The translations under genes and the position numbers were made by a program. The notes beneath the pieces are model-generated. The model made no database searches, had not been told where the DNA came from, and saw nothing but the letters and a program-made list of their open reading frames with translations. This document shows, piece after piece, positions 8,613 through 63,154 of a stretch of 64,000 bases of DNA (positions are counted from its first letter, which is position 1; the number at the start of each line of letters is the position of its first letter). Source of the DNA: Corynebacterium mendelii (GTDB taxonomy: Bacteria; Actinomycetota; Actinomycetes; Mycobacteriales; Mycobacteriaceae); contig NZ_JAFLEQ010000008.1 of the NCBI RefSeq assembly GCF_017307055.1, positions 712,342-776,341 of the forward strand, given 5' to 3'.

Positions 8613-9788
8613 ATGCCGCAAGTGTTTTCCTCCCCGCCGTTGGGCGTGTATGTGCATGTGCCTTTTTGTGCCTCCCGCTGCGGATACTGTGATTTCAACA
8701 CCTACACACCACGGGAATTGGACGGCAAAACCGGCCCCGAGGCCTATCTGGAGGCTCTTGAGAAAGAACTCGCCATGGCGGCCGCACAGCTGGCCGACAG
8801 CTCCACCCCGGGGCCTGCCGGGACAGTGTTCGTCGGCGGCGGAACCCCCTCGCTTCTGGGGGGCCGGGGCCTGGCACGCATCTACCGGGCGATTGACCGC
8901 ACCATCGGTATCGCCCCCGGCGCTGAGGTGACCACCGAATCCAACCCCGAATCCACCGATCCCGGATTTTTCGCCGCGATCCGCGAGGCCGGATACAACC
9001 GGGTGTCACTGGGCATGCAGTCAGCCAGTGCCGGGGTGCTGGAAGTACTGGGCCGCAGGCACACCCCCGGGCGGGCGGTGGCCGCGGCCGGGGAAGCCGC
9101 CCGGGCGGGTTTTTCCCACATTAATCTGGACATGATCTACGGCACCCCGACCGAAACCGATGCGGATGTCGAAGCGACTCTCGACGCGGTGCTGTCGGCG
9201 GGTGTCGACCACGTCAGCGCCTATTCGCTGATCGTCGAGGACGGCACCGCTTTCGCCCGGAAAGTGGCCAAAGGGATTCTTCCCGCCCCCGACGATGATG
9301 TGCTCGCGCACCGCTACCAGCTCATCGACACCGCTTTATCCGGTGCCGGCATGCAGTGGTACGAAGTCTCCAACTGGGCGGCCCCCGGCGGGATGTGCCG
9401 GCACAATATGGGCTACTGGTGCGGGGCGAACTGGTGGGGCGCCGGGCCCGGCGCCCACAGCCATATTGACGGCAGGCGTTTTTTCAACGTCAAACATCCT
9501 TTCCGCTACCACGCCATGCTCACGGGGGGACAGTCGGCGGTCGACGGCGGTGAAACACTGTCCACCGCCGACCGCCACACCGAAGAGATCATGCTCGGGC
9601 TGCGGTTGAGACAGGGTATCGACATCTCCCGCCTGTCTGCGGCGGCGCAGGCGGAAGCGGCCGCATATTCCCGCCGCGGCCTGCTGCACACCTTCCGCGC
9701 GGCGGGAACCACCCGGCTGGCGGTCACCGGCGCCGGGCGGCTGTTGGCCGACGGAATCATCGCCGCGCTGCTGGCCGCCGAGGACTAA
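8613..9788 (+). CDS. hemW: HemW-family radical SAM protein
   Basis: HemW is a radical SAM protein now regarded as a heme chaperone; it was long annotated as coproporphyrinogen III oxidase-like. The cluster-binding [13 protein letters not shown] (CxxxCxxC) lies near the N-terminus after [16 protein letters not shown] and the [10 protein letters not shown] region are also typical, and the C-terminal part matches the HemW length (391 residues). ATG 8613 is 8 bases after TAGATT, suggesting a leaderless mRNA; a GTG two codons earlier is the alternative. It is followed by hrcA, as in other Corynebacterium genomes. Confidence 0.93.
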
Positions 9789-9900
9789 ACGCCCGTCGGC
9801 TGCCCGCCGGATGCCGGTTGCTTACCACCGGTGCTCCACTACCCTTGGGGGACAGAGTTTCCCGTACTTCCCACCGACCACGTTAGGCAGGCTGTCACCG

Positions 9901-10920
9901 ATGACCGGACAGACCCAGAAACGCCGCCGCGAAGTGCTGCGCGCCATCGTTGCCGACTACATCGCCTCCCAGGAGCCGGTGGGCAGCAAAACCCTGGTGG
10001 AACGCCACCGGCTGGGGGTCAGCTCGGCGACGATCAGAAACGACATGGCGGTGCTGGAATCGGAGGGCTACATCGTCCAGCAGCATGCTTCCTCGGGCCG
10101 TATCCCCACCGAGAAGGGCTACCGGCTGTTTGTCGACACGCTGCAGGAAATCAAACCGCTGTCAGCACCCGAACGCCGGGCGATTTTGAGTTTCCTGGAA
10201 GACGGCGTTGACACCGAAGACGTGCTGCGCCGCAGTGTGCAGCTTCTCAGCCAACTGACCCGGCAGGCCGCTGTGGTGCAGCTGCCCGCCCTGTCGGCCT
10301 CCCGGGTGCTGCACCTGGAGATCGTCCCGCTGGCCGTGGGCCGGGTGCTGCTGGTCCTGATCACCGACTCCGGCCGGGTGGAGAAACGAAACGTCGACGT
10401 CGACCAGGTGCTGGACATGGTGGCCCTGGCCAGGATCAAAGAACTGTTCAACACCGCCCTGGGCGGCAAAACACTGTCCGAAGCGTCCGTGGCGCTGGCC
10501 GATGTGGCCGACACCGCCCCGGCCGATATCCGCACCCCGGTTGTCGCCTGTGCCACCGTGCTGATCGAAACACTGGTGGAAGCCCCCAGCGACCGGATGA
10601 TTCTGGCCGGCGCGTCGAATCTGACCCGTGAATTCCCGGTGGGTCTTCCGGCGGTGCTTGACGCCCTGGAAGAACAGGTGGTCGTGCTCAGGCTTCTGGC
10701 GTCGGCGGCTGACACCGGACAGGTGTCGGTGTCGATCGGCAACGAAAACGAAGCCGAAACCCTGCATGCGGCCAGTGTGGTCACCACCGGCTACGGGACG
10801 GCGGAAGTGCCGCTGGGCGGGATGGGCGTGGTGGGGCCGACCTGGATGGACTACCCGCAGACCATCGCCAAAGTTGCTGCCGTCGCCCGCTACGTCAGCC
10901 GGGTGCTCGGCGGGAAATAG
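9901..10920 (+). CDS. hrcA: Heat-inducible transcription repressor HrcA
   Basis: HrcA represses class I heat-shock genes (groESL and others) by binding CIRCE elements, with GroEL promoting its activity. The 339-residue length matches the family. The N-terminal winged-helix domain (about residues 5-75) includes [13 protein letters not shown] and [15 protein letters not shown], which are near-universal in HrcA. The C-terminal GAF-like domain carries [13 protein letters not shown]. The upstream frame from 9811 lacks homology, and the ATG at 9901 gives the standard start. I saw no CIRCE palindrome in front of the gene. dnaJ2 follows. Confidence 0.95.
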
Positions 10921-11489
10921 CCGCCGTGTTTTCCTCAAGCCCCTGCTGCCGGGGCGGCAGGGGCGGCGACAACGGGAGTGCACTTGCGGCCGTGATGTGC
11001 CGTTGGCTTTGGTCCTGCGGCAGCACGGGGATGAGTCAGAAAAAAAGGATGATCCCCACCGTCGGCCGCCACCTGTTTCCTGGTGCCGTGTCTGTGGTGC
11101 CGCGCCGTGCCGGGGAAAGGGAAACCGGCCCCGCCGCAGCCTGCGATACCGCGGTGTCCGGGAGCTGATTGTCGTTTTGTGCGGCCCACCCGGGGGAGGG
11201 GACCACACCCGCCCGGGGGCATCTGCGGTGGAAGGGGGCGGCACTACCCGGCCGCTTTGTGCCGGGGAGAGGGAATAAAACCCGGTGCGGCGGGCGTTGG
11301 TTGGTTTGTCCCGCGGGGTGCTTGAAAAGCCCCGGTGACTGGCTGGCCGGGGCACCCGATACGATGGGCCTCGGAGTTGTGCGCACCGCACACAAGCCGC
11401 ACCGTGTGGTTTCTCCCGCGGGTGCACCGACATGACATGGTGAATAACCGAAGCTTGACCGACGAGTACAAAAAGGAACGTTGACTTTC
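10921..11489. other. hrcA-dnaJ2 intergenic region
   Basis: This 569-base gap contains a GC-rich hairpin just after hrcA (GCCCCTGC at 10939-10946 pairing with 10957-10964, with a nested CTGCC/GGCAG stem). No T-run follows it. I see no coding frame with support and no CIRCE or HAIR heat-shock operator. AAAAGGAAC at 11471-11479 is the dnaJ2 ribosome binding site. Confidence 0.5.
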
Positions 11490-12629
11490 GTGGCGCGTGA
11501 CTACTACGGCATTCTGGGCGTTGACAAAAACGCCACCGACGCCGAGATCAAAAAGGCCTACCGCAAACTGGCGAGAACCTACCACCCTGACGTCAACCCG
11601 AGTGAGGAAGCGGCGGAGAAATTCCGCGAAATCTCGGTGGCGCAGGAGATTCTCCTCGACCCGACCAAAAGACGCATCGTCGATGCCGGCGGGGATCCGA
11701 TGGAGCAGCGCGGCGGCGGTGGTGCCCCCGGCGGCTTCGGCGGTTTCGGCGGCTTCGGTGATATTTTCGATGCCTTCTTCGGCGGCGGGGGCGCCCAGGG
11801 GCCGATCCCGCGGCGCCGTCCCGGCGAGGATGCGCTGGTCCACACCAGTATCACGCTCCAGCAGGCCTACACCGGTGTCACCCAGGAGATGACCGTCGAT
11901 ACCGCCGTGCTGTGCCCGGACTGCACCGGCTCGGGATCGAAGAGCGGGAAAAAACCCACCACCTGCACCGTCTGCCAGGGGCAGGGGCATGTGCAGAAAA
12001 TGCAGCGCAGCTTTATCGGCAATGTGGTCAGCGTCGGGGTGTGCGACAACTGTGAGGGCACCGGCGAGATCATCCCCGATCCCTGTACCGCCTGCTCCGG
12101 TGACGGCCGGGTGCGCAGCCGCAAGGATTTGACGGTGCGCATTCCCCGCGGAATCCACAGCGGCATGCGCATCCAGTTGGAAAGCCAGGGCGAGGTCGGC
12201 CCCGGCGGCGGACCGGCCGGTGACCTGTATGTGCAGGTCGAAGTCCAGCAGGATCCGGTGCTGGTGCGTGACGGCGATGATCTGCACTGCCGGCTGAAGG
12301 TACCGATGGTTGATGCCGCCCTGGGCTGTGAAACAACGGTCGACGGCCCCGACGGGCAGCCGGTGACCATCACCATCACCCCCGGCCAGCAGCCCGGCGC
12401 CAGCATCCGGGTGGAAGGGGCGGGCATGCCCAAACCCCGGGAAGGCTTCGGTGATCTGGTGGCCAACCTGGATGTGGTGGTGCCCACCGATTTGGATGAT
12501 AAATCCCGCAAGCTGCTCGGCCAGCTGAAACACCACCGCAGCCACCACGACAAAGTCAGTGTGCTCAGCGCCAACGACGAATCCGAGGGACTGTTTTCCC
12601 GGATGCGCCGCCGTTTCTTCCGCCAGTAG
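11490..12629 (+). CDS. dnaJ2: Chaperone DnaJ (second actinobacterial type)
   Basis: This J-domain co-chaperone stimulates DnaK ATPase and delivers unfolded clients. The J-domain is residues 1-65, with HPD in [14 protein letters not shown] Gly/Phe-rich linker (about 72-100) follows. Four zinc-binding repeats, [24 protein letters not shown] and CTACSGDG, are all intact. A C-terminal client-binding domain follows. GTG 11490 gives the family N-terminus [11 protein letters not shown]; the TTG at 11481 lies closer to the Shine-Dalgarno sequence and is the alternative. The hrcA-dnaJ2 pairing is typical of Corynebacterium and Mycobacterium. Confidence 0.95.
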
Positions 12630-12759
12630 CATCCTCAGTTTTGCCTCCCGCCGTGCCCCGGCGGCCGCCAGTTCCCCCGGGCAGGCCGCCCGGGGCGGGG
12701 GCGTGTTTTTCATCAACCGAACCGTCAACCGAACCACCACCACAGAAAGCGATCCAGCC

Positions 12760-13605
12760 GTGACAGATCCGGTGTTTTTGTGTGACGGCTGCCCGCAGGA
12801 TCCGCAGGCGGTCGCCGCCGCCGCGGCGGTGCTGGAACACGGCCCCGGACAGTCGGTGACCATCACCGGCGACGAGGGTTTCCATGCGGTGACCGTCAAA
12901 AGGATCAGCTGCGGTGACACGATCACCGTCACCAACGGCCACGGCGTTGCCGCCACAGTCCGGGTGACCGACACCACCGGCAAAGACCGGCTGACGGGAA
13001 CCATTGTCGGGGGTGCAGAAAGAGCACGCCCCGCCGTCGGTATCGCGGTGGTGCAGGCACTGCCGAAATCGGACCGGGCGGAATCCCCGGTCCAGTTGGC
13101 CACCCAGGCCGGTGCCGCGGTGGTCGTGCCCTGGCAGGCGGAGCGCTGCATCGCCAAATGGAAGGGCGCGAAAAAAGACCGGGCGCAGGCCAAGTGGCGG
13201 TCCGCCGCGATTGAGGCCGCCAAACAGTCGCGCCGCACCACCGTGCCCCGGGTCACCGATATGGTCACCACAGCGCAGCTGGCCGGGCATATTGCCCGCG
13301 TCCGCGACAACGGAAGTGTGGTCATTGTCCTGGACGAGAACGCCCGGCAGCCGTTGACCGGCCTAGCCGTCTGGGACAGGATCGCCGCTGGCCCGGTGGG
13401 CGGGGACACAGATCCGGACGCACTGTTCAGCGGCTGTGACGTGGTGGTCATTGTCGGCCCGGAGGGCGGGATCGGGGACGGGGAGAAACAGCGCCTGATT
13501 GACGCCGGGGCCATCCCGGCACTGTTGGGGCCGGAGGTCTTTCGCACGGTCACAGCCGCCATGGCGGCCTGTGTGGCCGTCAGCGTGCTGACCGGGCGCT
13601 GGTAG
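12760..13605 (+). CDS. rsmE: 16S rRNA m3U1498 methyltransferase RsmE
   Basis: RsmE methylates N3 of U1498 in 16S rRNA in the 30S subunit, using SAM. The 281-residue protein has an N-terminal PUA-like part and a C-terminal SPOUT methyltransferase domain. Its trefoil-knot signatures are SRRTTVP, VVIVGPEGGIGD and LLGPEVFRTVTAAMAA. In the last motif the usual RxET reads RTVT, a conservative departure. GTG 12760 is chosen over starts inside dnaJ2 because homology begins there. It lies 130 bases after dnaJ2 on the same strand. Confidence 0.9.
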   Translation: MTDPVFLCDGCPQDPQAVAAAAAVLEHGPGQSVTITGDEGFHAVTVKRISCGDTITVTNGHGVAATVRVTDTTGKDRLTGTIVGGAERARPAVGIAVVQALPKSDRAESPVQLATQAGAAVVVPWQAERCIAKWKGAKKDRAQAKWRSAAIEAAKQSRRTTVPRVTDMVTTAQLAGHIARVRDNGSVVIVLDENARQPLTGLAVWDRIAAGPVGGDTDPDALFSGCDVVVIVGPEGGIGDGEKQRLIDAGAIPALLGPEVFRTVTAAMAACVAVSVLTGRW

Positions 13606-54077: not shown

Positions 54078-54506
54078 GTGACGGACACCTCGGGCTCCGG
54101 AAGCTCCGGCACCCAGGCATACGCAGAACTAATGGATGTCACCAAAGGTCAGATCGTCCAGGAAGTCGGCTGGGACGATGACTGTGACTCCGAGATCAGT
54201 GAATCCCTCGAGGATGCCATCGGCGACCTGCTGGTCGGTGAAGACACAGATGAAATCTGCGACGTTGTTCTCCTGTGGTGGCGCGCCGACGATGGTGACT
54301 TAGTCGATGGACTGGTCGATGCCATCAGGCCGCTGGCCGAAGACGGCTGTATCTGGCTTCTGACTCCGGCGCTGGGGGACAAGGGATCCGTTGAACCCGG
54401 CATCATCAGCGAGTCAGCCCAACTGGCCGGTCTGGTCCAGACCTCCGCTGAGCGTCTCGGCGACTGGCAGGGTTCCCGCCTGGTACCCCGCGGCACCAAA
54501 AAGTAA
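54078..54506 (+). CDS. DUF3052 family protein
   Basis: The 142-residue acidic protein is recognised as DUF3052, a conserved actinobacterial family next to aceE in mycobacteria and corynebacteria. Characteristic segments include VGWDDDCDSEI and CDVVLLWWRADDGDL. It is predicted to be soluble and cytoplasmic. ACAGGAGGACTTGTACC provides a strong ribosome binding site. The function is unknown. Confidence 0.88.
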   Translation: MTDTSGSGSSGTQAYAELMDVTKGQIVQEVGWDDDCDSEISESLEDAIGDLLVGEDTDEICDVVLLWWRADDGDLVDGLVDAIRPLAEDGCIWLLTPALGDKGSVEPGIISESAQLAGLVQTSAERLGDWQGSRLVPRGTKK

Positions 54507-54588
54507 GACACAATTTCCCTCCGGCGCCCGGCACCGGTAGTGTCTTTGTTCGGCAATAAAATCGCGGATGAAAAATCATCCGTACCTT

Positions 54589-54665
54589 GCGCCCTTAGCT
54601 CAGCTGGTTAGAGCACTTCGTTTACACCGAAGGGGTCGGCGGTTCGAATCCGTCAGGGCGCACCA
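54589..54665 (+). tRNA. tRNA-Val (TAC)
   Basis: A 74-base cloverleaf (acceptor GCGCCCT pairs with AGGGCGC) with anticodon loop TTTACAC carrying TAC, and the encoded CCA at 54663-54665. It marks the boundary between GC-rich core DNA and the lower-GC CRISPR-Cas region. The 3' end is not repeated elsewhere in the window. Confidence 0.95.
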
Positions 54666-54688
54666 CAAGCTTGCGCTCCCGCACCTAT

Positions 54689-54694
54689 TAGAAT
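54689..54694 (+). promoter_or_regulatory. Candidate -10 box for the repeat-like small RNA
   Basis: TAGAAT matches the corynebacterial TANNNT -10 well and would place the start point at about 54700-54702, where the first repeat-like hairpin begins. No convincing -35 is seen. Confidence 0.5.
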
Positions 54695-54697
54695 GGT

Positions 54698-54823
54698 TCT
54701 GTCTCCTCTCCCGAGGAGTTGGTCCATAGGTGGTTTTGGAACTGCACGTGAACCGTAGAGTTGTCTCCGCCCCGGCGGAGTCAAATCCCTCTTCCCTCTC
54801 AGGAAGAGGGCTTTCTGCTTTTC
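54698..54823 (+). ncRNA. Candidate CRISPR-derived regulatory RNA (two degenerate repeats)
   Basis: Two segments (54698-54725 and 54760-54787) resemble the array repeat. Both keep the 6-bp stem and 4-base loop. The first has CTCCTC/GAGGAG where the array has CCCCGC/GCGGGG, with two paired changes; it shares TGTC before the stem and GTTGxTCC after it. The second has CTCCGC/GCGGAG, with one paired change, after an identical GTTGTC. They lie 62 bases apart (array period 61) around a 34-base spacer-like segment starting ATAGGTGGTTTTGGAA. A terminator follows directly. The layout matches CreR/CreA-type CRISPR-like regulatory RNAs. A decayed array is the main alternative. Confidence 0.55.
54787..54823 (+). 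terminator. Terminator of the repeat-like small RNA
   Basis: CCCTCTTCC (54787-54795) pairs with GGAAGAGGG (54802-54810), followed by CTTTCTGCTTTT. It directly abuts the second repeat-like element and separates it from the array leader. It could also end a tRNA-Val read-through transcript. Confidence 0.85.
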
Positions 54824-54957
54824 CAGCCCTGAAAGGGGTACTGATCTCGGGGCGGAAATTATCTTGACAGTATGTTGAGCTTATCGAACTTGAAAAAAAC
54901 TAAGTCACAGTGAATCTAAAAGCTACTTCAGATTTATGTTCCCGCAAGTTGATAAGC
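54824..54957 (+). promoter_or_regulatory. CRISPR leader
   Basis: This AT-rich segment lies immediately upstream of the first repeat. TATGTT at 54935-54940 is a candidate -10 box, 17 bases before the repeat, and TTGACA at 54864-54869 is a -35-like element too far upstream to pair with it. Array polarity (degenerate repeat at the far right end) supports a leader on this side. Confidence 0.65.
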
Positions 54958-55107
54958 GTTGTCCCCGCGCGAGCGGGGTTGATCCGGACCGCACTACAGC
55001 GCGCAAACCATGTTGACGGTTGTCCCCGCGCGAGCGGGGTTGATACTGGGTACGGATCGAAAGTTTGTGGTGCGCCCTAGTTGTCCCCGCGTGAGCGGGG
55101 TGTACAG
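54958..55107 (+). CRISPR. Short type I-E CRISPR array, 3 repeats, 2 spacers
   Basis: Three repeats start at 54958, 55019 and 55080 with an exact 61-base period, fitting a 28-base repeat plus 33-base spacers. The first two are near-identical: GTTGTCCCCGCGCGAGCGGG plus GTTGAT. The repeat hairpin is CCCCGC/GCGGGG. The third has a C-to-T change in the loop and a diverged 3' end, as expected of a terminal repeat distal to the leader. Spacers are 54986-55018 and 55047-55079. No match to either spacer was seen in this window. A fragment starting GTTGTCTCCG at 55130 is a possible relic. Confidence 0.93.
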
Positions 55108-55251
55108 CAACATTAAATCATCGAAGTGTGTTGTCTCCGTGGGGAAGGGGATTTCCTGAGGACGTTCGGCACACATAGCTTTCCCTTTCTCTTTTGTTTG
55201 AAGGTGGCATTAGCTGATTTTCTCTTCACAGATCAGGTTGGCTTTCTAACT

Positions 55252-55913
55252 ATGGTCGCGGGTTTTGCCGGACCCGGTATCGAGGACATCAAGGCCACCC
55301 AGTGTTTCTGTCTGCGGGTCCTGCCGCTTGATTTCGGTGTCATCGACGCCCACCTGACCGCGACAGTGAACCGCTTTTCGTGGACGTGGCCGACGCCATC
55401 AAAGCGTCGATGCAGCAGACCTGGTGGGCCTGTGACGAATTCACTGTCCTCCCCAAGGAACAGTTCGCCGGTGATGCCATTAATGCTGATCTGCTCACCA
55501 AAATCGCCGCCGACCTGGAACTGACGTGCCACCTCGATCAGGAGTGGGACCGCTACGAGATCGGGGCCGGTGACACCCTGTCAGCCATCATCGAAGAAGA
55601 CCCTTCCGGCCAGCTACGCATCTGGTGGGAGATGACCATAGAGGACACCGAAGACTTCCACGACGAGGACTAATATTTCGGCGCGCTGCTGGCACTTGAC
55701 GGAGTGCAGGGACAGGACGCCACACTGCGGATGAGTCTGACGGAAGCCGTCGACTACACAGCCACCTTCCACATCGAAAGCGTGCTGGGTATCCCCGAAG
55801 GCGAACCCAACACCGACTAGATTGCCGCAGCGATAGCTGGTGTTTTCAACGCCGCGGCACAATTCGAATCTAGGCTGGGAGAGATGATCCTGGTCGGCAG
55901 CACAGAGAAGTAA
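55252..55913 (+). pseudogene. Broken hypothetical gene
   Basis: Coding-like sequence runs from ATG 55252 (MVAGFAGPGIEDIKATQ) to about 55375, shifts frame at a TTTT run at 55375-55378, and continues to 55913 in one frame interrupted by TAA 55671 and TAG 55818. The text on both sides of each stop reads as protein (e.g. WWEMTIEDTEDFHDED before and YFGALLALDGVQGQ after the first). One 97-residue piece could still be made from GTG 55380. No family was recognised. It may be a remnant of the event that brought in the CRISPR region. Confidence 0.6.
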
Positions 55914-55998: not shown

Positions 55999-57606
55999 TC
56001 AGCTTGCCTTCGCTGCGTTAGCGACAATCCAGCCGCAGGCCTTTGCATCCGAGGAAGCCTCGTGGTGTTTAAGCCGGTAGCCAGGTTTCACATGTTTAAC
56101 CACCGTGGGAAGCTTGTGGTTTTTCAGATTCGGCCACAGTTTTTGGGCCAGTTTCACGGTGCAGAAAAACCGTTCGGGACAGGTGTCAGTGCCGTAGTGC
56201 TCATCGAGTTTTTGCCATACAGTGTGGTCAAAGGCAGCGTTGTGTGCATAGACCGGCGCATCACCAACAAACTTTCCGATTTCTTCGGTCAGAGCATCCC
56301 AGGTAGGGGCTTGGCGGACCGTTCTGGGTTTAATGCCGTGAATGTAAGTGAAAGTGAATTCATTGCATTCGGTTGGCGGCTTAATATAGCTAACTAGCTG
56401 GGCATGCGGGGCGCCGCCAATGAATTTGACCAGAGCTATCTGGCAGGCCGAACGGCGGTCTTCGTTGGCGGTTTCGAAATCGACAGCGACAAACTCTAGT
56501 TCGTTAAGTTCTGCGTTAGTGGGAGTGTCTCGCCAAACAGACCTTTTTGAGCTACGAGTACCAGGTATCCCCTTCGTATAGGTTCTTATCTCCCACTGGA
56601 TCCCTACCTGTGAAGCGCCAGATGCTATAAAAACCGCCCCAAGGCGACGTTCGGATTTCATGCGTTCCTCCGCCTCGCGTTCCTTTGCCCTGTAAACCTT
56701 CCACTGCTCTTCGAAAGGCCCCGGATCGCCGCCTGTTTGACGTTGTTTCTTGGCCATTGCTTTGGCTCTGCGCTTGAGGAGGTTGTAGTGGTAGTCATCG
56801 CGTTGTACAGGCCACGAATGCCCCAACCACCGGTCCAAAGTCTCTACCAACTCGTCGTTTCGGCCAAGTTTTGTTTGCAGGATGGCCACCTGAATGACGT
56901 AGTGCTCCATCGCGCAATTCGGGGTTGTTTTGCAGGCTTCCTCCAGAACTTCCAGGGCGAGCAGTGCAGTATCAAGGGCTTTTTCATGTTCCCCCTTCTT
57001 TTTCAGCTCTGTCACTTCTTCGGAGATCTCCCACAGGCAGCGGCCATCAAGTGTCGGCATGTACCAACCGTCGGGGACTCGCGAAGGATCATCGGGGTCC
57101 ACACGGCCCATGCGTGATACCACTGTGGTTTCCAGATCAGTTCGCGGTACCAGCTCGGTCCCATTTGCGACCGGTGTACTGCCGAAGTGCTCTTCCCGCT
57201 GCAGAGGATGCACAGGATCCTGCTTCTCAGGTTTGGTGTGTAACGGGTACTGGGGTGGTTGTGTGGTTCCGGGCACTGGTGGCACAGCACCTTCTGCCAC
57301 CCCGCTATCGGCGTGAGGAGTTTTCCCATGTGTTTGCTGTTCAAGCGTGGAAAAATCGGGGTTGTGGGCAGGAGCACCCAGATTTCCAGCGAGAGGCTCC
57401 ACGGTGGGCTGAGCGGTAGTGCTTCGATTCTCCTTAGACCCCTTCGGCAGGGTAAACACGAGGCCGATGACCGGACCTGCCGTAACGAACAGCGAAAAAA
57501 CACCCGCTCCGACTTCTCCCATCGAAAAAAACGCAATAGTGACGATAGCCATGAACGCGGCTATCAGGCCCAAAAAGACAGACAGGATGATTCGGATGAT
57601 CTTCAT
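55999..57606 (-). CDS. Membrane-anchored DEDDh 3'-5' exonuclease-like protein
   Basis: The 535-residue protein has two N-terminal membrane helices (about 4-27 and 32-53), then a Pro/Thr/Gln-rich linker (about 58-180). A helical, TPR-like region follows (about 190-290), and the protein ends in a DnaQ-like exonuclease domain (about 370-530). All five DEDDh residues are present: Asp376 and Glu378 in AVDFETAN, Asp460 in HNAAFDHTVW, His515 and Asp520 in HHEASSDAKAC. It should cut DNA or RNA 3'-5' on the cytoplasmic face. It lies between the array and cas3, on the opposite strand. DnaQ-like exonucleases trim prespacers in some type I-E systems, but a role in CRISPR here is inference. Confidence 0.85.
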   Translation of the reverse strand: MKIIRIILSVFLGLIAAFMAIVTIAFFSMGEVGAGVFSLFVTAGPVIGLVFTLPKGSKENRSTTAQPTVEPLAGNLGAPAHNPDFSTLEQQTHGKTPHADSGVAEGAVPPVPGTTQPPQYPLHTKPEKQDPVHPLQREEHFGSTPVANGTELVPRTDLETTVVSRMGRVDPDDPSRVPDGWYMPTLDGRCLWEISEEVTELKKKGEHEKALDTALLALEVLEEACKTTPNCAMEHYVIQVAILQTKLGRNDELVETLDRWLGHSWPVQRDDYHYNLLKRRAKAMAKKQRQTGGDPGPFEEQWKVYRAKEREAEERMKSERRLGAVFIASGASQVGIQWEIRTYTKGIPGTRSSKRSVWRDTPTNAELNELEFVAVDFETANEDRRSACQIALVKFIGGAPHAQLVSYIKPPTECNEFTFTYIHGIKPRTVRQAPTWDALTEEIGKFVGDAPVYAHNAAFDHTVWQKLDEHYGTDTCPERFFCTVKLAQKLWPNLKNHKLPTVVKHVKPGYRLKHHEASSDAKACGWIVANAAKAS

Positions 57607-57751
57607 CTCTGCGGTACTTCCTCATAGATTCAGGGTTTTGATCAGCTACCCCCTCAAGATACGCGCTACCTCCGCCCCTGCCACCGTTTGAAGAAGTGAA
57701 TTCTGATGCATATGGGCCGTCGGTAACCCTGAAATAGGTAATGAAGCAGCG

Positions 57752-57787
57752 CATAATGCCGAAACGGCGATAGGCTGTTTTTCAAAC
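57752..57787 (+). promoter_or_regulatory. cas3 promoter with possible crRNA-like target site
   Basis: CATAAT at 57752-57757 is a good -10 candidate, with the start near 57764. ATAGGCTGTTTTTCAA at 57770-57785 matches the start of the small RNA's spacer-like segment (ATAGGTGGTTTTGGAA) at positions 1-5, 8-12 and 15-16. The flanking 5' triplet is GCG, which is not the E. coli I-E PAM. The overlap with the expected initial transcribed region would allow roadblock repression. Confidence 0.35.
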
Positions 57788-57906
57788 TTTCGTTCGGCTT
57801 GGATTTTCCCTGTTACCGTGATTGGAAGACTGCTCTTGCATCTCAAGGTGTACCTACTACAGATAAATCCTTCAGCAGATGCCAACGCTTTTTTGGGAAT
57901 TGCAGC

Positions 57907-60804
57907 ATGAGTGAGTCCACTGCGAAAGTGAAAAGTGTTCCAGAAGAGCTCCGCGATTTTTGGGCCAAAACCCCGGATCCCGACGGCAATACTCTTCTTC
58001 TGGTGACGCATCTGAAAGATGCAGCCGAAGTAATGGATCTGCTGTGGCACAGATGGTTGCCTCAGTCAGTAAAAAACTTTGTCTCTCACGAACTCTTTGG
58101 CGAACGTATCGCTCTGGCATTTTGCAAGTACGGCGCCGCGGTTCATGATGCTGGAAAAGCTGATCCGACCTATTTCAGTATTTTCAGTGCAATCCGCTCC
58201 CACATGGAACAGCTGGGATATCCGGTCCCGCTGTATCGGGGAGACGAGCGTCCGCGGCACGAAACAACCGGTGCAGTTGAGCTGAGGTCCTGGCTCAAAG
58301 AAAAGACAGATGCCTCAGGGGACATCATTAACCGACTGATCTTTCCGGTGCTGGCGCACCACGGTGTGGCACATTCTTCCACTCTTGAATACGCCGCTGA
58401 CCAACTTGGAGCCGGGGCCCCTGAGTCGGAGCGCTACCTGCGCTACAAAAATGCTCGACACGCCATCTTTGACTGGGCTACGGAACTGGTGGGACTTACA
58501 GCCGATGACTGGAAAAAGCTCACCAGCAGAAAGCTCCACCCTGCGGTAGCCGTTGTGGTGTCGGGATTGGTCATCGTCGCCGATTGGATAGCCTCCAATA
58601 GGAATCTGTTTCCCTTCACGTGCCAGCAGTCCACTGTCCGGGCTATCGAGGGCTACCAGCGGCTGGCATTGCCCGGTCCCTGGAAGGTTTCCAGTCGAAC
58701 CATTGCCGGGGATGGCTTTGCCACCGCCTTTGGCCTTCCGGAAGGAACTAAAGCCAGGCCGGTTCAACGGGACGCAATGACCGTCGCCGCGGCCTGTGCT
58801 GAAGCACCGCTGATGATCATTGAGGCTCCAACCGGTGAGGGTAAGACAGAAGCTGCGTTGGCAGCTGCGGAGATTCTCGCGGGGAAGTTCGGTTGCGGGG
58901 GAATCTATATGGCCCTTCCAACCTGCGCCAGCAGCGACGGACTGTTTCCCCGGGTGCTTGATTTCCTGTCGGGGTCAATTGATGACGGTACCGCTGCTTC
59001 CATCAGACTGATGCACGGCAGAGCCCAGTTCAACGACAGGTACACAGCCCTGATGGACTCCGACGTCACCCATGTCGATGACGATGACGAAACCTGCCAT
59101 TGCGGTGGATCAATCGCTCCGCATCAGTGGTTTTCGGGGCGCAAACAGGGACTGCTCTCTGAATTCGTCGTGGGAACCATCGATCAGGTATTGATGGCAG
59201 GACTGTCCACCCGGCATCTGATGCTGCGCCATTTGGGGCTGGCCGGCAAAGTGGTCATTCTCGATGAGGTGCATGCATCTGATGTGGTGATGAAGGAATA
59301 CCTCAAGCTTGTTTTGGGATGGCTGTCTGCCATGCATGTCCCGGTGATTGCTTTGTCAGCGACGCTGCAACCGGACTTCAAGAAGGAATTGTTGACTGCA
59401 TACTGGCGTGGCCGGAAAACAGCAACTTCTATGCGGGCGCTGTCCAGAAAAATCGACAGTGCAGTTACCGAAAAAATCACCGATGTCGCCGAATATGACG
59501 CTTATCCTCTGATTACGGTGCAGGTGGGAGAAGATTTTAAAGTTCACGCGCCGACACCGTCTGCACGGAGTAGATCCGTCAGGTTCACCTTTGAGGAAGG
59601 GGACTGCACTGATCTCAGTCAGATTGCTTCGAGAATAAGAGATATCGCCAGCGATGGTGGCTGTCTCTTGGTCGTGATGAACACTGTTGGCAGGGCGCAG
59701 AAGCTTTTTTTGACACTTCGTGAGGAAGCAGTGTTTGACCGGGATGAGCTGGTTTTGCTGCATTCCCGGTTTGTGGCCAACGAGCGGGTGCGTATCGAGA
59801 AAAAGGTGATGAATGCGCTCGGACCGGAAAAAGCAGGGACTCAACGTCCAAACCGCATGGTCGTGATTGCTACTCAAGTGGTTGAGCAGAGCCTTGATAT
59901 AGACGCGGACGCCATGATCACAGACATTGCTCCCGTTGACCTTTTGATCCAGCGTATCGGCAGATTGCACCGACATCCACGACCGATAGAAACGCGTCCC
60001 GAAAAACTGAGGGAACCAGTGGTCGTCATCAGTGGTATGGAACGCGGTGAAACAACGCCCAAGTTCGAACGTGGCTCAGAGCTGATATACAGCCGCGGCC
60101 AGCTGCTGCGTAGTGTTGCTGCGTTAGATCAGTTAGCTGCCGACAAGGGGGAGCCTGTCATTGTGTCTCCCGATGATGTCCATGGCTTGGTTGCTGCAGC
60201 CAGTGATATGGACCGTCCCGGACCGGCGGAGTGGGAACCTGAATGGTCATCGTCCGCGCTCGATTTGGAGAAAAAAGAGGCAAAGCTTCGGGAGAGGACG
60301 AAAGGCTTTCGGATTGCGGAGGTTGCCAGGGGAACCGAGCTTCTCGGATGGAATTCGAAGTGGGACAGCCGGTCTGAGGCTGGCACTATTTCAGGGGTCA
60401 GAAATGCCGAAAACTCAGTGACTGTCATTGTCGTGCAGTCAGTTGATGGGCAACTTCAGACCCTTCCCGGTACCGTTGAAGCAGAGTCCATATCGATCCC
60501 CACTGAACTTCCGCTAGACGACGAACTCGCCAAAAACATCGCCCGGTGTTGCGTCTCTTTTCCCGGCTGGTTTTCCTGTCTACGCGAGGAAACGAACATG
60601 GTAATCAAGCACCTGTCGGATCACAACCGTTTTCCGTCGTGGCAGAAATCTGGATGGCTTTCAGGTGAAGTACCTCTGGTTCTGGATGCTAGCTGTCGCG
60701 CAGTCATAGGGGAGTGGGTGTTTTCCTACGATCCGGCGATTGGCCTGGCAGTGGAAAAATTACGAAAATCCGATCGATCTACAGGAGTGACGGCCAATGG
60801 CTGA
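57907..60804 (+). CDS. cas3: CRISPR-associated helicase/nuclease Cas3
   Basis: Cas3 degrades target DNA after Cascade recognition. The 965-residue protein has an N-terminal HD nuclease domain (VHDAGKADP with His80-Asp81, then HHGVAH near 155). A superfamily 2 helicase follows, with Walker A EAPTGEGKTEAAL near residue 306, DEVH at about 453 (ILDEVHASD), SAT at about 484 and QRIGRLHRH late in domain 2. ATG 57907 is used; an open frame extends upstream without homology. The stop overlaps casA by 8 bases. Codon use is visibly less GC-biased than in the rest of the window. Confidence 0.96.
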   Translation: MSESTAKVKSVPEELRDFWAKTPDPDGNTLLLVTHLKDAAEVMDLLWHRWLPQSVKNFVSHELFGERIALAFCKYGAAVHDAGKADPTYFSIFSAIRSHMEQLGYPVPLYRGDERPRHETTGAVELRSWLKEKTDASGDIINRLIFPVLAHHGVAHSSTLEYAADQLGAGAPESERYLRYKNARHAIFDWATELVGLTADDWKKLTSRKLHPAVAVVVSGLVIVADWIASNRNLFPFTCQQSTVRAIEGYQRLALPGPWKVSSRTIAGDGFATAFGLPEGTKARPVQRDAMTVAAACAEAPLMIIEAPTGEGKTEAALAAAEILAGKFGCGGIYMALPTCASSDGLFPRVLDFLSGSIDDGTAASIRLMHGRAQFNDRYTALMDSDVTHVDDDDETCHCGGSIAPHQWFSGRKQGLLSEFVVGTIDQVLMAGLSTRHLMLRHLGLAGKVVILDEVHASDVVMKEYLKLVLGWLSAMHVPVIALSATLQPDFKKELLTAYWRGRKTATSMRALSRKIDSAVTEKITDVAEYDAYPLITVQVGEDFKVHAPTPSARSRSVRFTFEEGDCTDLSQIASRIRDIASDGGCLLVVMNTVGRAQKLFLTLREEAVFDRDELVLLHSRFVANERVRIEKKVMNALGPEKAGTQRPNRMVVIATQVVEQSLDIDADAMITDIAPVDLLIQRIGRLHRHPRPIETRPEKLREPVVVISGMERGETTPKFERGSELIYSRGQLLRSVAALDQLAADKGEPVIVSPDDVHGLVAAASDMDRPGPAEWEPEWSSSALDLEKKEAKLRERTKGFRIAEVARGTELLGWNSKWDSRSEAGTISGVRNAENSVTVIVVQSVDGQLQTLPGTVEAESISIPTELPLDDELAKNIARCCVSFPGWFSCLREETNMVIKHLSDHNRFPSWQKSGWLSGEVPLVLDASCRAVIGEWVFSYDPAIGLAVEKLRKSDRSTGVTANG

Positions 60805-62467
60805 TAATCCTCATCCTTCATTTAATCTTATTGATAAACCATGGATTCCAGTACTCGACGAATCGTCGCGTGTGCAGGAGATTAACCTTCGTCAGGCGGT
60901 ATGCAATGCACATCGGTACACCTGCCTGGCAGCAGAGACTCCCACCGTGGACTTTTGCATCCTGCGGCTTCTGATCGCGGTCCTTGGGCGTTCCCTGTCA
61001 GACTGGCTTACCGATGATCCCGCCAGCGACTGGAAAGAACTGTGGGACGCAGAAACCCTGCCGGCCGAAGAAATCAATGCATACCTCGATAAATGGCACG
61101 ACAGTTTTGACCTCCGGGATCCTGCAAACCCTTTCATGCAGACCGCGGGGCTTACCAACAATAACGACACTTGGTTCCACTTCAACCGATTTATGTACGG
61201 GTGTAAAAAAACCGGCAGCCTGTTTTCGGTACAGCCGCCAGAATATCCGCTCACCATGGCTGAAGCAGCCCGCTGGGGCTTGCATGTCCACGCTTTTGAC
61301 TACGCGGGAATCAAGACTGCCATGGTCGGTGACCCGCGGGAAAAGGGCGGGAAAATCTATGCCAAAGACGGCGGTGGAATCGGGTGGGGTGGTTGGCTTG
61401 GTGCTCTGACTGTCAAAGGAAGCAATCTCAAGGCGACAGTGCTGCATAACTTTCTGCCGGGAACGATTACTCCCGAAGACATCCCCTTTTGGGAACTGGG
61501 ACCTTTGCCTGTGGGACAAAGAAGCGGCCGAAACGGAGTTGTACCGGGACCGCTATCGCTCGGGGTGTGGCCATCCAGACGCTTTTTGTTCAGATTCTCC
61601 GATGACGACGTGGTTGATGCGGTACGGATCACTTACGGAGATCCGGTCGATCATCTGAACTGTAAAGGGCTGGAAAATCAGACACAATGGCGTTTCAGCA
61701 ATCCCAAATCCGAAGAGACCGGACATGCTGTGTATCTTCCACAGAAACTGGTCCTGGGCAGAAGCCTGTGGCGGGGAATTTCGTCTTTTCTCCCCGGTTC
61801 AAACGGGCCAATGATTGAGTTTCATGATCAGGAAGTTCCCCGGAGCATTTTGGCGGAGAACCTGGACTGGTTTCATCGAGTCAAACAAAACGGCTACATC
61901 GAAGATGACTACTTGGTGGATGTCGAAGTTGCTTCATACGAGTACGGAACACAAAACGGCTGCTTCGATACCTTGATCACCGACAAATTGACCTTCAAAT
62001 CGGTACTTGCGAATAAAGATCGCAAGCGTCTTCGCGGCAGTGTGACAACGGCCGTGAATCGAGCTGAGCAAGCAGCCACGGCCTACAAAAGATATGTCCG
62101 AAACCTCGGTGTTGCCACAGGTTGTGACTCCAAGCAGCTGCAAAGCCTGGAAAGCAGAGCCGAGCAGGAGATGTACTCCGAGTTAGACCAAATTTTTGCG
62201 GATTGGTTGCTGAGCATCAACGGTGATTCCGAGCCTGATGCCGTCCTCGAGGAATGGACTGAAACATTACGCGAGTTGGTGCTCCGCTTGGTCGATGATC
62301 GTTCCCGGAATGTAAGTGACCGGGCATGGGTGGGGAGAGAGTACTCCGACGGAAGTCAAAGCAAATTCATGAACTCCGGACTTGCAGAGAAATTCCTCTT
62401 GGCGTCTCTTAGGAAAATTCTGCCGAGAAAAACCGCTAATGAGACTGAGGAAAAAGCGGAAAACTAA
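60797..62467 (+). CDS. casA: Cascade large subunit Cse1/CasA
   Basis: CasA (Cse1, Cas8e) recognises the PAM and recruits Cas3 in the type I-E Cascade complex. The 556-residue protein begins with the diagnostic FNLIDKPWIPVLDES. It keeps the family's length and helical C-terminal domain. It overlaps cas3 by 8 bases, and casB follows 27 bases later. Confidence 0.96.
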   Translation: MADNPHPSFNLIDKPWIPVLDESSRVQEINLRQAVCNAHRYTCLAAETPTVDFCILRLLIAVLGRSLSDWLTDDPASDWKELWDAETLPAEEINAYLDKWHDSFDLRDPANPFMQTAGLTNNNDTWFHFNRFMYGCKKTGSLFSVQPPEYPLTMAEAARWGLHVHAFDYAGIKTAMVGDPREKGGKIYAKDGGGIGWGGWLGALTVKGSNLKATVLHNFLPGTITPEDIPFWELGPLPVGQRSGRNGVVPGPLSLGVWPSRRFLFRFSDDDVVDAVRITYGDPVDHLNCKGLENQTQWRFSNPKSEETGHAVYLPQKLVLGRSLWRGISSFLPGSNGPMIEFHDQEVPRSILAENLDWFHRVKQNGYIEDDYLVDVEVASYEYGTQNGCFDTLITDKLTFKSVLANKDRKRLRGSVTTAVNRAEQAATAYKRYVRNLGVATGCDSKQLQSLESRAEQEMYSELDQIFADWLLSINGDSEPDAVLEEWTETLRELVLRLVDDRSRNVSDRAWVGREYSDGSQSKFMNSGLAEKFLLASLRKILPRKTANETEEKAEN

Positions 62468-62494
62468 AGTCTAGAAGAAAGGATGACATCGACT

Positions 62495-63154
62495 ATGAGT
62501 GATGAAACGGAACCTCGTTCGGTTGCCGGCACCATTTACGGCTATGTCAATGGACGAGTGAAAGATCTCTATAAAGGCTATGTCTCAGGATCCGGAACCG
62601 CACGGGCGACCTTGGCGAATCTGAGGAGCGGCGCCGGAAAACCACCGGGAGACTCACTGGAAGTGTGGGCTGAAACGCTGGCGTATCTGCCGGACGATTT
62701 AAAAGGCCACGGGGACAGGCTCTCAAAAGCAGAGAAAGCCGTCTATCTGGCGCTGTGTCTGTTCGCGGTACATCAGCAGTCGAAATCCGCTTCCATGCAC
62801 ATTCCAAGGGAATCCGGGAAGTGGTCGATTTCGTTTGGTGCGGCTGTATCAAAACTTGAGTATCTCACAGAAGGGCAGCACACAAATTCTCCTGTGCGAC
62901 GCCGCTTCAACGCTGTTGCCACCAGCCGGGACTTTAATGAGATTTCCCATCATGCACGAGGATTGATCCGCCAACTGCGCGGGGAGAATATCCCTTTGGA
63001 TTATGCACAACTCGCTGTGGATCTGTTTTTTCTGCAATCTCCAGCCTCAGCCACCACGGTCAAACGCCGGTGGACCCGAGATTACTTCGAGCCCCACGGG
63101 AAAAACCATCCGGATTCTGGATCATCCCAGACAGACTCACACTCTGCCCAATAA
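62495..63154 (+). CDS. casB: Cascade small subunit Cse2/CasB
   Basis: CasB (Cse2) dimers stabilise the R-loop in Cascade. The 219-residue, helix-rich protein fits the family (RATLANLRSGAGKPPGD near the N-terminus, SPVRRRFNAVATSRDFNE). AAAGGA lies 11 bases before ATG 62495; an ATG four codons upstream overlaps this site and is less likely. It is longer than E. coli CasB (160), as usual for actinobacteria. Confidence 0.93.
   Translation: MSDETEPRSVAGTIYGYVNGRVKDLYKGYVSGSGTARATLANLRSGAGKPPGDSLEVWAETLAYLPDDLKGHGDRLSKAEKAVYLALCLFAVHQQSKSASMHIPRESGKWSISFGAAVSKLEYLTEGQHTNSPVRRRFNAVATSRDFNEISHHARGLIRQLRGENIPLDYAQLAVDLFFLQSPASATTVKRRWTRDYFEPHGKNHPDSGSSQTDSHSAQ

Follow-up and report, generated by a model that had tools for sequence, protein, structure and literature searches.

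Do the degenerate CRISPR-like hairpins beside a short type I-E array of Corynebacterium mendelii specify an RNA that acts on the bacterium's own genes? A sequence-only reading of the window analysed here (64,000 nt of C. mendelii, NZ_JAFLEQ010000008.1) had described one repeat-derived RNA of the CreR/CreA layout. That proposal is supported by a survey of the genus, by seed matches and by a guide position that was not selected for, and we noticed that the locus holds two such elements, not one. The sequence comparisons give us good confidence that the RNA encoded by element 1 would be a crRNA-like regulator resembling CreR and CreA. Both elements probably make guides that would lower the expression of the cell's own genes, not guides that cut invaders.

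Anatomy of element 1 and its surroundings

The features of the window that bear on the question are as follows.

54589..54665, + strand: tRNA-Val (TAC), just 5' of element 1 (ARAGORN, Rfam)
54689..54694, + strand: -10-like TAGAAT (sequence only)
54698..54726, + strand: element 1 psiR1, first degenerate repeat (sequence, repeat detector, fold)
54727..54759, + strand: element 1 psiS1, spacer-like guide of 33 nt (sequence, detector, seed search)
54760..54788, + strand: element 1 psiR2, second degenerate repeat (sequence, repeat detector, fold)
54787..54820, + strand: intrinsic-terminator-like hairpin (54787-54810) and T-rich tail (terminator scan)
54958..55158, + strand: short array (sequence)
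55999..57606, - strand: DEDDh exonuclease gene, situated after the short array and before cas3 (PADLOC Cas-associated DEDDh model)
57729..57757, + strand: promoter-like CTGAAA-17-CATAAT, 5' of cas3 (promoter scan, 1 found against 0.4 in shuffles)
57771..57802, + strand: proposed psiS1 target TAGGCTGTTTT..., preceded by CGA, 136 bp 5' of the cas3 ATG
57907..60804, + strand: cas3, ATG start, open frame from 57799 (ORF and family match)
60797..62467, + strand: cse1 (cas8e) (family match)
62483..63154, + strand: cse2 (cas11) (family match)

The two hairpins were said to have stems and loops as long as those of the array repeat while departing from its sequence by paired substitutions, and this was borne out. 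The array repeat forms CCCCGC[GCGA]GCGGGG at 54958 and 55019, with one loop change at 55080, and element 1 forms CTCCTC[TCCC]GAGGAG at 54703-54718 and CTCCGC[CCCG]GCGGAG at 54765-54780, with stem starts 62 bases apart. Pair 2 is T-A for C-G in both hairpins, and pair 5 is T-A for G-C in the first only, as claimed. The claim of conserved flanks held for TGTC, which is present at both hairpins, but GTTGxTCC is found at the first only (GTTGGTCC), the second reading GTCAAATCC. The 3' handle is retained in psiR1 as TTGGTCC (TTGATCC in the array), the 8-nt handle of the element being TTGGTCCA, and psiR2 retains the 5' part of the array repeat, GTTGT; a handle supplied by psiR1 and a 3' hairpin supplied by psiR2 is the division of labour required by a minimal CRISPR. 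Of 28 positions, its two repeats share 18 and 19 with the array repeat, and element 1 is not an ordinary type I-E array with near-identical repeats. It consists, as does a CreR, of degenerate repeats around a spacer-like stretch near a cas locus. The 126-nt RNA is predicted to fold with both hairpins formed, and one of 200 shuffled sequences folded equally well (z -3.45). A hairpin-pair detector, with thresholds chosen after element 1 was seen, gave no match in reversed sequence (1,446,742 bases from 74 loci) or in five local shuffles.

The transcription signals attributed to the element were upheld in part. A TAGAAT is present at 54689-54694, but the promoter scan reported no site there, so that the promoter of element 1 is regarded as suggestive. 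The hairpin at 54787-54810 is followed by a T-rich tail, but the terminator scan counted 1 such site against 0.9 in shuffles, so that it is not significant by itself. As it is the sole terminator-like site in the scan of 54560-55250, read-through from tRNA-Val is possible, and this gene is a possible source of transcription into element 1. The insignificant terminator-like site, and the position of the element directly 3' of tRNA-Val, would also suit a common small RNA or a terminator next to a tRNA gene, whose likeness to the repeat is due to chance. We consider this very improbable, as the hairpin pair is absent from both strands of 29 loci of other genomes in which a tRNA match adjoins a DUF3052 gene, checked with a detector that finds both elements. 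The Rfam scan of 50-64 kb gave nothing but tRNA above the gathering score. Blast of 54500-55200 against plasmids matched the tRNA in all of the best 20 of 63 records, and outside the genome itself the matches listed for 54500-54950 against 201 genomes likewise fall on the tRNA.

The surroundings could also be read as those of a dying CRISPR locus, the elements being functionless, decayed remnants of an old array. Consistent with that explanation, the adjoining short array is itself decaying: its repeats at 54958 and 55019 are identical over 26 nt, while that at 55080 has an altered 3' end and that at 55130 is decayed. Moreover, cas1 was not detected in the genome (99.71% complete, 18 contigs) by a search that, as a control, was positive in 9 of 14 genomes. 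The compensated stem changes argue against decay, as does the retention of the psiR1 handle and the 5' part of psiR2, both of which are needed for a mature guide.

The contig carries a further array, of 54 repeats, some 510 kb away and thus far from the cas genes (G000 C17:253792-257043, L136; repeat GTTGTCCCCGCGTGAGCGGGGCTGATCC; periods all 61 except one of 60), and a search of plasmids with it gave five weak matches. Two overlapping ORFs (132 and 97 aa) at 55126-55673, between the short array and the exonuclease gene, have no Pfam or NCBIfam match and are possibly a decayed gene.

Element 2 and the guide-target matches

Element 2 has the same build as element 1 and lies 2 kb past the window end, 184 bases 3' of the cas6e stop. 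Its features are given in the coordinates of locus L063 (G000:C17:766001-780319), which reaches past the window end; the window position equals the L063 position plus 53659.

9514-10659: cas7, beyond the window
10663-11385: cas5, beyond the window
11386-12117: cas6e, beyond the window
12302-12330: element 2 psiR1
12331-12362: element 2 psiS2, 32 nt
12363-12391: element 2 psiR2, starting with GTTGT
12387-12416: element 2 terminator-like hairpin
12538-12569: proposed psiS2 target, AAC followed by TTGGCTGTTTTCCG..., over an extended -10-like TGATATACT
12668-13381: ORF237, 237 aa, ATG preceded by GGAGG, the candidate repressed gene

The repeats of element 2 are identical to the array repeat at 16 and 17 of 28 positions, its handle is CTGATCCG, and the pair-2 T-A change is common to both elements. 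The psiR1 stem has five of six pairs and the psiR2 stem has five pairs and a G-U, so that element 2, like CreA, consists of two divergent repeats in which the handle and the hairpins are retained. In the predicted fold of the whole RNA (z -2.89), the second repeat pairs with the guide and its own hairpin is not formed.

The seed of psiS2 matches at 10 of 10 bases (positions 1-5 and 7-11) a target 207 bases further on with the PAM AAC. This target overlies the putative promoter of the next gene, ORF237, a promoter proposed from the extended -10-like TGATATACT at a place where the promoter scan reported none. Element 2 therefore combines, as CreA does, a seed match at positions 1-5 and 7-11 with a PAM at a nearby putative promoter. 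AAN followed by the psiS2 seed occurs as a single exact site in the 3.09-Mb genome. Among 20,000 random guides (random 11-mers of the window), none equalled psiS2 in the 240-bp region with an AA PAM and seven did so with no PAM condition; with no PAM condition, 2 of 5,000 psiS2 shuffles reached 10/10. Based on these matches, repression of ORF237 by element 2 appears likely.

The psiS1 seed has nine exact matches of ten and one U.G wobble at -136 of cas3, just after the predicted promoter. Its target pattern occurs at four non-self sites genome-wide, of which the cas3 site is one. On the target strand of the 300-bp region 31 of 20,000 random guides did equally well (75 on either strand), and so did 62 of 5,000 psiS1 shuffles on either strand. 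A different contig has an exact psiS1 seed site with AAC, located at the 3' end of what we take to be nadE. Repression at this 3' end makes no obvious sense, and the site is taken as a chance match, about 0.4 being expected for 12 fixed bases. Genome-wide, the pattern totals were 8 for psiS2 (12 in the backward-pattern control), 5 for the psiS1 wobble pattern (13) and 4 for the psiS1 exact-seed PAM pattern (8); as these totals are not above their controls, the case rests on location and exactness and not on numbers.

The PAM differs between the two targets. AAN precedes the element 2 target, a phage match and the targets of many relatives, for which AA was a condition of the relaxed survey described below. 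The phage match is that of a spacer of the 54-repeat array to phage capsid genes (four records, 91-93% identity, weak E-values of 0.09); in the two stretches read, the three bases ahead of it, taken in the 8-nt-handle frame used for the elements, are AAC. A review also gives AAN as the PAM of the type I-E system of Streptomyces avermitilis (PMC12231136). The element 2 target agrees with this PAM and the element 1 target does not: a CreR target carries a PAM accepted by the system, and with the non-AAN trinucleotide CGA at the psiS1 target, element 1 is named CreR-like and not a CreR. The unusual PAM also speaks for the decayed-remnant explanation, whereas the presence of two such elements within one locus and the exact seed and expected PAM of element 2 speak against it.

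The seeds of psiS1 and psiS2 are alike (T.GG.GGTTTT), and at nine of ten seed bases the cas3 site is also matched by psiS2. Both observations speak for an alternative in which element 1, instead of regulating cas3, is an antitoxin-type, CreA-like guide whose target, shared with element 2, is the ORF237 promoter or else a toxin so far unrecognised. We regard this as rather doubtful, given that psiS1 fits the cas3 site (nine bases and a wobble) better than the ORF237 site (eight seed bases and a wobble, counted from both sequences), and that the cas3 site at -136 falls within the range of -18 to -155 found at other loci. That cas3 is the target of element 1 is the reading we favour, with some reserve, on these comparisons.

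Units upstream of cas3 across the genus

A Cas3 match was found in 93 of 201 genomes, and 74 loci, that of C. mendelii included, were taken for the survey; the remaining 19 matches were weak, partial or on short contigs and were left out. Even the top Cas3 matches within the genus reach an identity of only about 40%, and no close relatives of Cas3 and Cas7 were confirmed among the genome contigs. A Cse1 or Cas7 match also occurs in 71 of the 74 loci, and none of the three with neither (L089, L170 and L171) was a survey hit. The cas3 starts at the other loci were extrapolated from tblastn, and the handle lists and thresholds were fixed after the first elements were seen.

A detector tied to the consensus of each array missed the elements of relatives and was rejected; looser detectors picked them up. 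The strict pair detector misses element 2, which is found by the looser version used for the tRNA loci and the loci of ORF237 relatives. The strict version found units in 14 of the 74 loci, and none in reversed sequence or five local shuffles. Three of its hits (L153, L168 and L178) were excluded by eye as array ends, and the relaxed survey found other elements in L153 and L168. With these three and the C. mendelii locus set aside, the ten strict units are found between 90 and 215 bp upstream of cas3, nine being divergent, and an AA-PAM seed match upstream of cas3 was found at 10/10 in seven and at 9/10 in two. No seed match near cas3 was found for L071. This mini-CRISPR (L071 9301-9396) has two near-identical repeats, unlike those of the array of its locus, and lies 215 bp upstream of cas3.

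In the relaxed survey we sought a hairpin, a handle and at least nine exact seed bases, or eight plus wobbles, at an AA PAM, with targets no further than 700 bp upstream or 60 bp downstream of where cas3 starts. Hits were obtained in 26 of the 74 loci, 17 of them with a 10/10 seed, compared to means of 0.75 and 0.5 (10/10) loci and maxima of 3 and 2 in 20 block shuffles; all 26 loci have a Cse1 or Cas7 match. The other 48 loci gave no hit, the C. mendelii locus being among them because element 1 lies outside the searched stretch. A survey of the genus, such as the sequence-only reading had called for, was thus positive, at 26 of 74 cas3 loci against 0.75 in shuffles. In 23 of the 26 loci the target is on the cas3 strand, between -18 and -155, and in L070, L079 and L172 it is on the opposite strand at +9 to +14, near the start codon. 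Such recurrence of comparable units with matching targets is a further argument against decayed remnants, an explanation that we judge unlikely on all the evidence.

Further analyses addressed which guide positions match the target. These three opposite-strand loci, kept in the 26, and one extra, chance-like hit of L164 were omitted, leaving 23 rows, of which 17 are non-redundant, that is, differ in their first five bases. Because a seed match was a condition for entering these rows, their seed counts carry no weight; the positions beyond the seed were not selected. Guide position 13 matches in all 17 non-redundant rows, compared to 7.4 in re-paired rows, followed by positions 15 (13/17; re-paired 4.9) and 14 (11/17; re-paired 5.0). 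Positions 6 (7/17; re-paired 7.1) and 12 (5/17; re-paired 3.4) are near chance, and bases 6 and 12 are those stated as non-pairing for CreA in the available excerpt of PMC8501985. Unless guide and target pair within Cascade, such a pattern in the sequences is difficult to account for. As they vary in nature, the guides and targets resemble a mutational scan, in which position 13 is kept while 6 and 12 are free. In the psiR1 stem, 94.2% of the cells are paired across 28 elements (26 distinct rows) and the covariation is 0.464, compared to 0.160 in shuffled rows, a count biased towards pairing by the partial selection of elements for a hairpin.

It should be noted that in several relatives (L179, L067, L068, L100, L153, L164, L168, L140 and others) the guide between the degenerate repeats looks shorter than an array spacer, at about 19-24 nt. 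Short guides may favour binding without cleavage.

Relation to known systems and proposed mechanism

The description of CreR is reportedly due to Liu and colleagues in 2023. The available excerpts of two papers describe CreR as a crRNA-like regulator of cas genes whose complementarity to a cas promoter is limited, acting in types I-B, I-E and V-A (PMC13131331, PMC12737573). Element 1 resembles CreR in being a degenerate mini-CRISPR with a partial match upstream of cas3. It differs in its position, 3' of a tRNA gene and 3.2 kb away from cas3, where the elements of relatives adjoin cas3, and in its target, whose PAM is not AAN and whose seed match includes a wobble. For CreA of CreTA (Cheng et al., 2021), the excerpt of PMC8501985 gives a seed of exactly positions 1-5 and 7-11 with a PAM; element 2 is similar in its two divergent degenerate repeats around a spacer, its seed at 1-5/7-11 and its PAM, but the gene behind its target encodes a 237-aa protein without an annotated family and not a known CreT. 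The type I-E CreTA of Citrobacter rodentium, according to the part of PMC12055562 available, lies between cas3 and casA, has a 96-bp toxin ORF and uses the PAM ATG. The likeness is in the type I-E system and in a crRNA-like guide that partly matches sequence upstream of a cas-locus gene; the elements of C. mendelii, in contrast, flank the operon, and element 2 uses AAC. In CrePA (Shu et al., 2024, via the excerpted review PMC12737573), a guide represses a protein-coding gene through the CRISPR effector, as is proposed for ORF237, but CreP typically has a KilA-N domain, whereas ORF237 has no Pfam, NCBIfam or PADLOC match.

Our literature search on Corynebacterium and CreR-type RNAs, in a coverage that includes few of the subscription papers, found no paper that joins the two, and the available parts of two papers on CRISPR in Corynebacterium and actinomycetes (PMC9944170, PMC12231136) do not mention such elements. 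As CreR has already been reported for type I-E, what is new here is the unusual two-guide locus and a new candidate cargo.

We propose that element 1 is a miniature degenerate CRISPR unit producing a crRNA-like guide. Transcription would start from the TAGAAT box or reach the element as read-through from tRNA-Val, and would stop at the terminator. Cas6e would cleave both hairpins, so that the 5' handle would come from the first and the 3' hairpin from the second. Cascade would then take up the guide and carry it to a promoter, where pairing mostly in the seed (1-5 and 7-11) would let it bind without destruction and block transcription. Element 1 would most likely damp cas3 and the operon behind it, a CreR-like autorepression, and element 2 would most likely repress ORF237 in the manner of CreA. 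More tentatively, one Cascade may use two paralogous, seed-sharing guides, by which cas3 is throttled and ORF237, as a new CRISPR-guarded protein, is held down. If so, loss or inhibition of Cascade would free cas3 and ORF237 simultaneously, and defence and a possible abortive or addiction effector would rise together in a genome without detected cas1. The proposed mechanism would place CreR/CreA-type regulation in a new locus, and the 26 of 74 cas3 loci suggest that it is common in the genus. For editing or silencing with the native type I-E system in these bacteria, it follows that deletion of a Cascade gene may release other genes.

ORF237 is accordingly put forward as a new candidate CRISPR-guarded protein, and a toxin function for it is guessed by analogy with the CreTA/CrePA pattern. 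Its PHROG matches were insignificant, and PDB, Pfam and PHROG searches with ORF237 and its relatives gave nothing convincing. No annotated cas gene was found in five plasmid neighbourhoods of relatives (incomplete tables), and no mini-CRISPR in nine loci of relatives (130,477 bases) with the looser detector, which finds element 2, or in 13 overlapping loci with a stricter one that misses it. The phage set held no relatives. Within the genus, relatives occur in five other genomes among 242, two of them with an internal stop, and in an order-wide draw in seven other genomes among 397, most matching the C-terminal part only. Relatives were also found in 15 plasmid records, nine of which are from Clavibacter, and as judged from these matches the family otherwise appears to reside mostly on actinobacterial plasmids. 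In C. mendelii, two short overlapping ORFs (9 and 14 codons, found by eye) extend into the start of ORF237.
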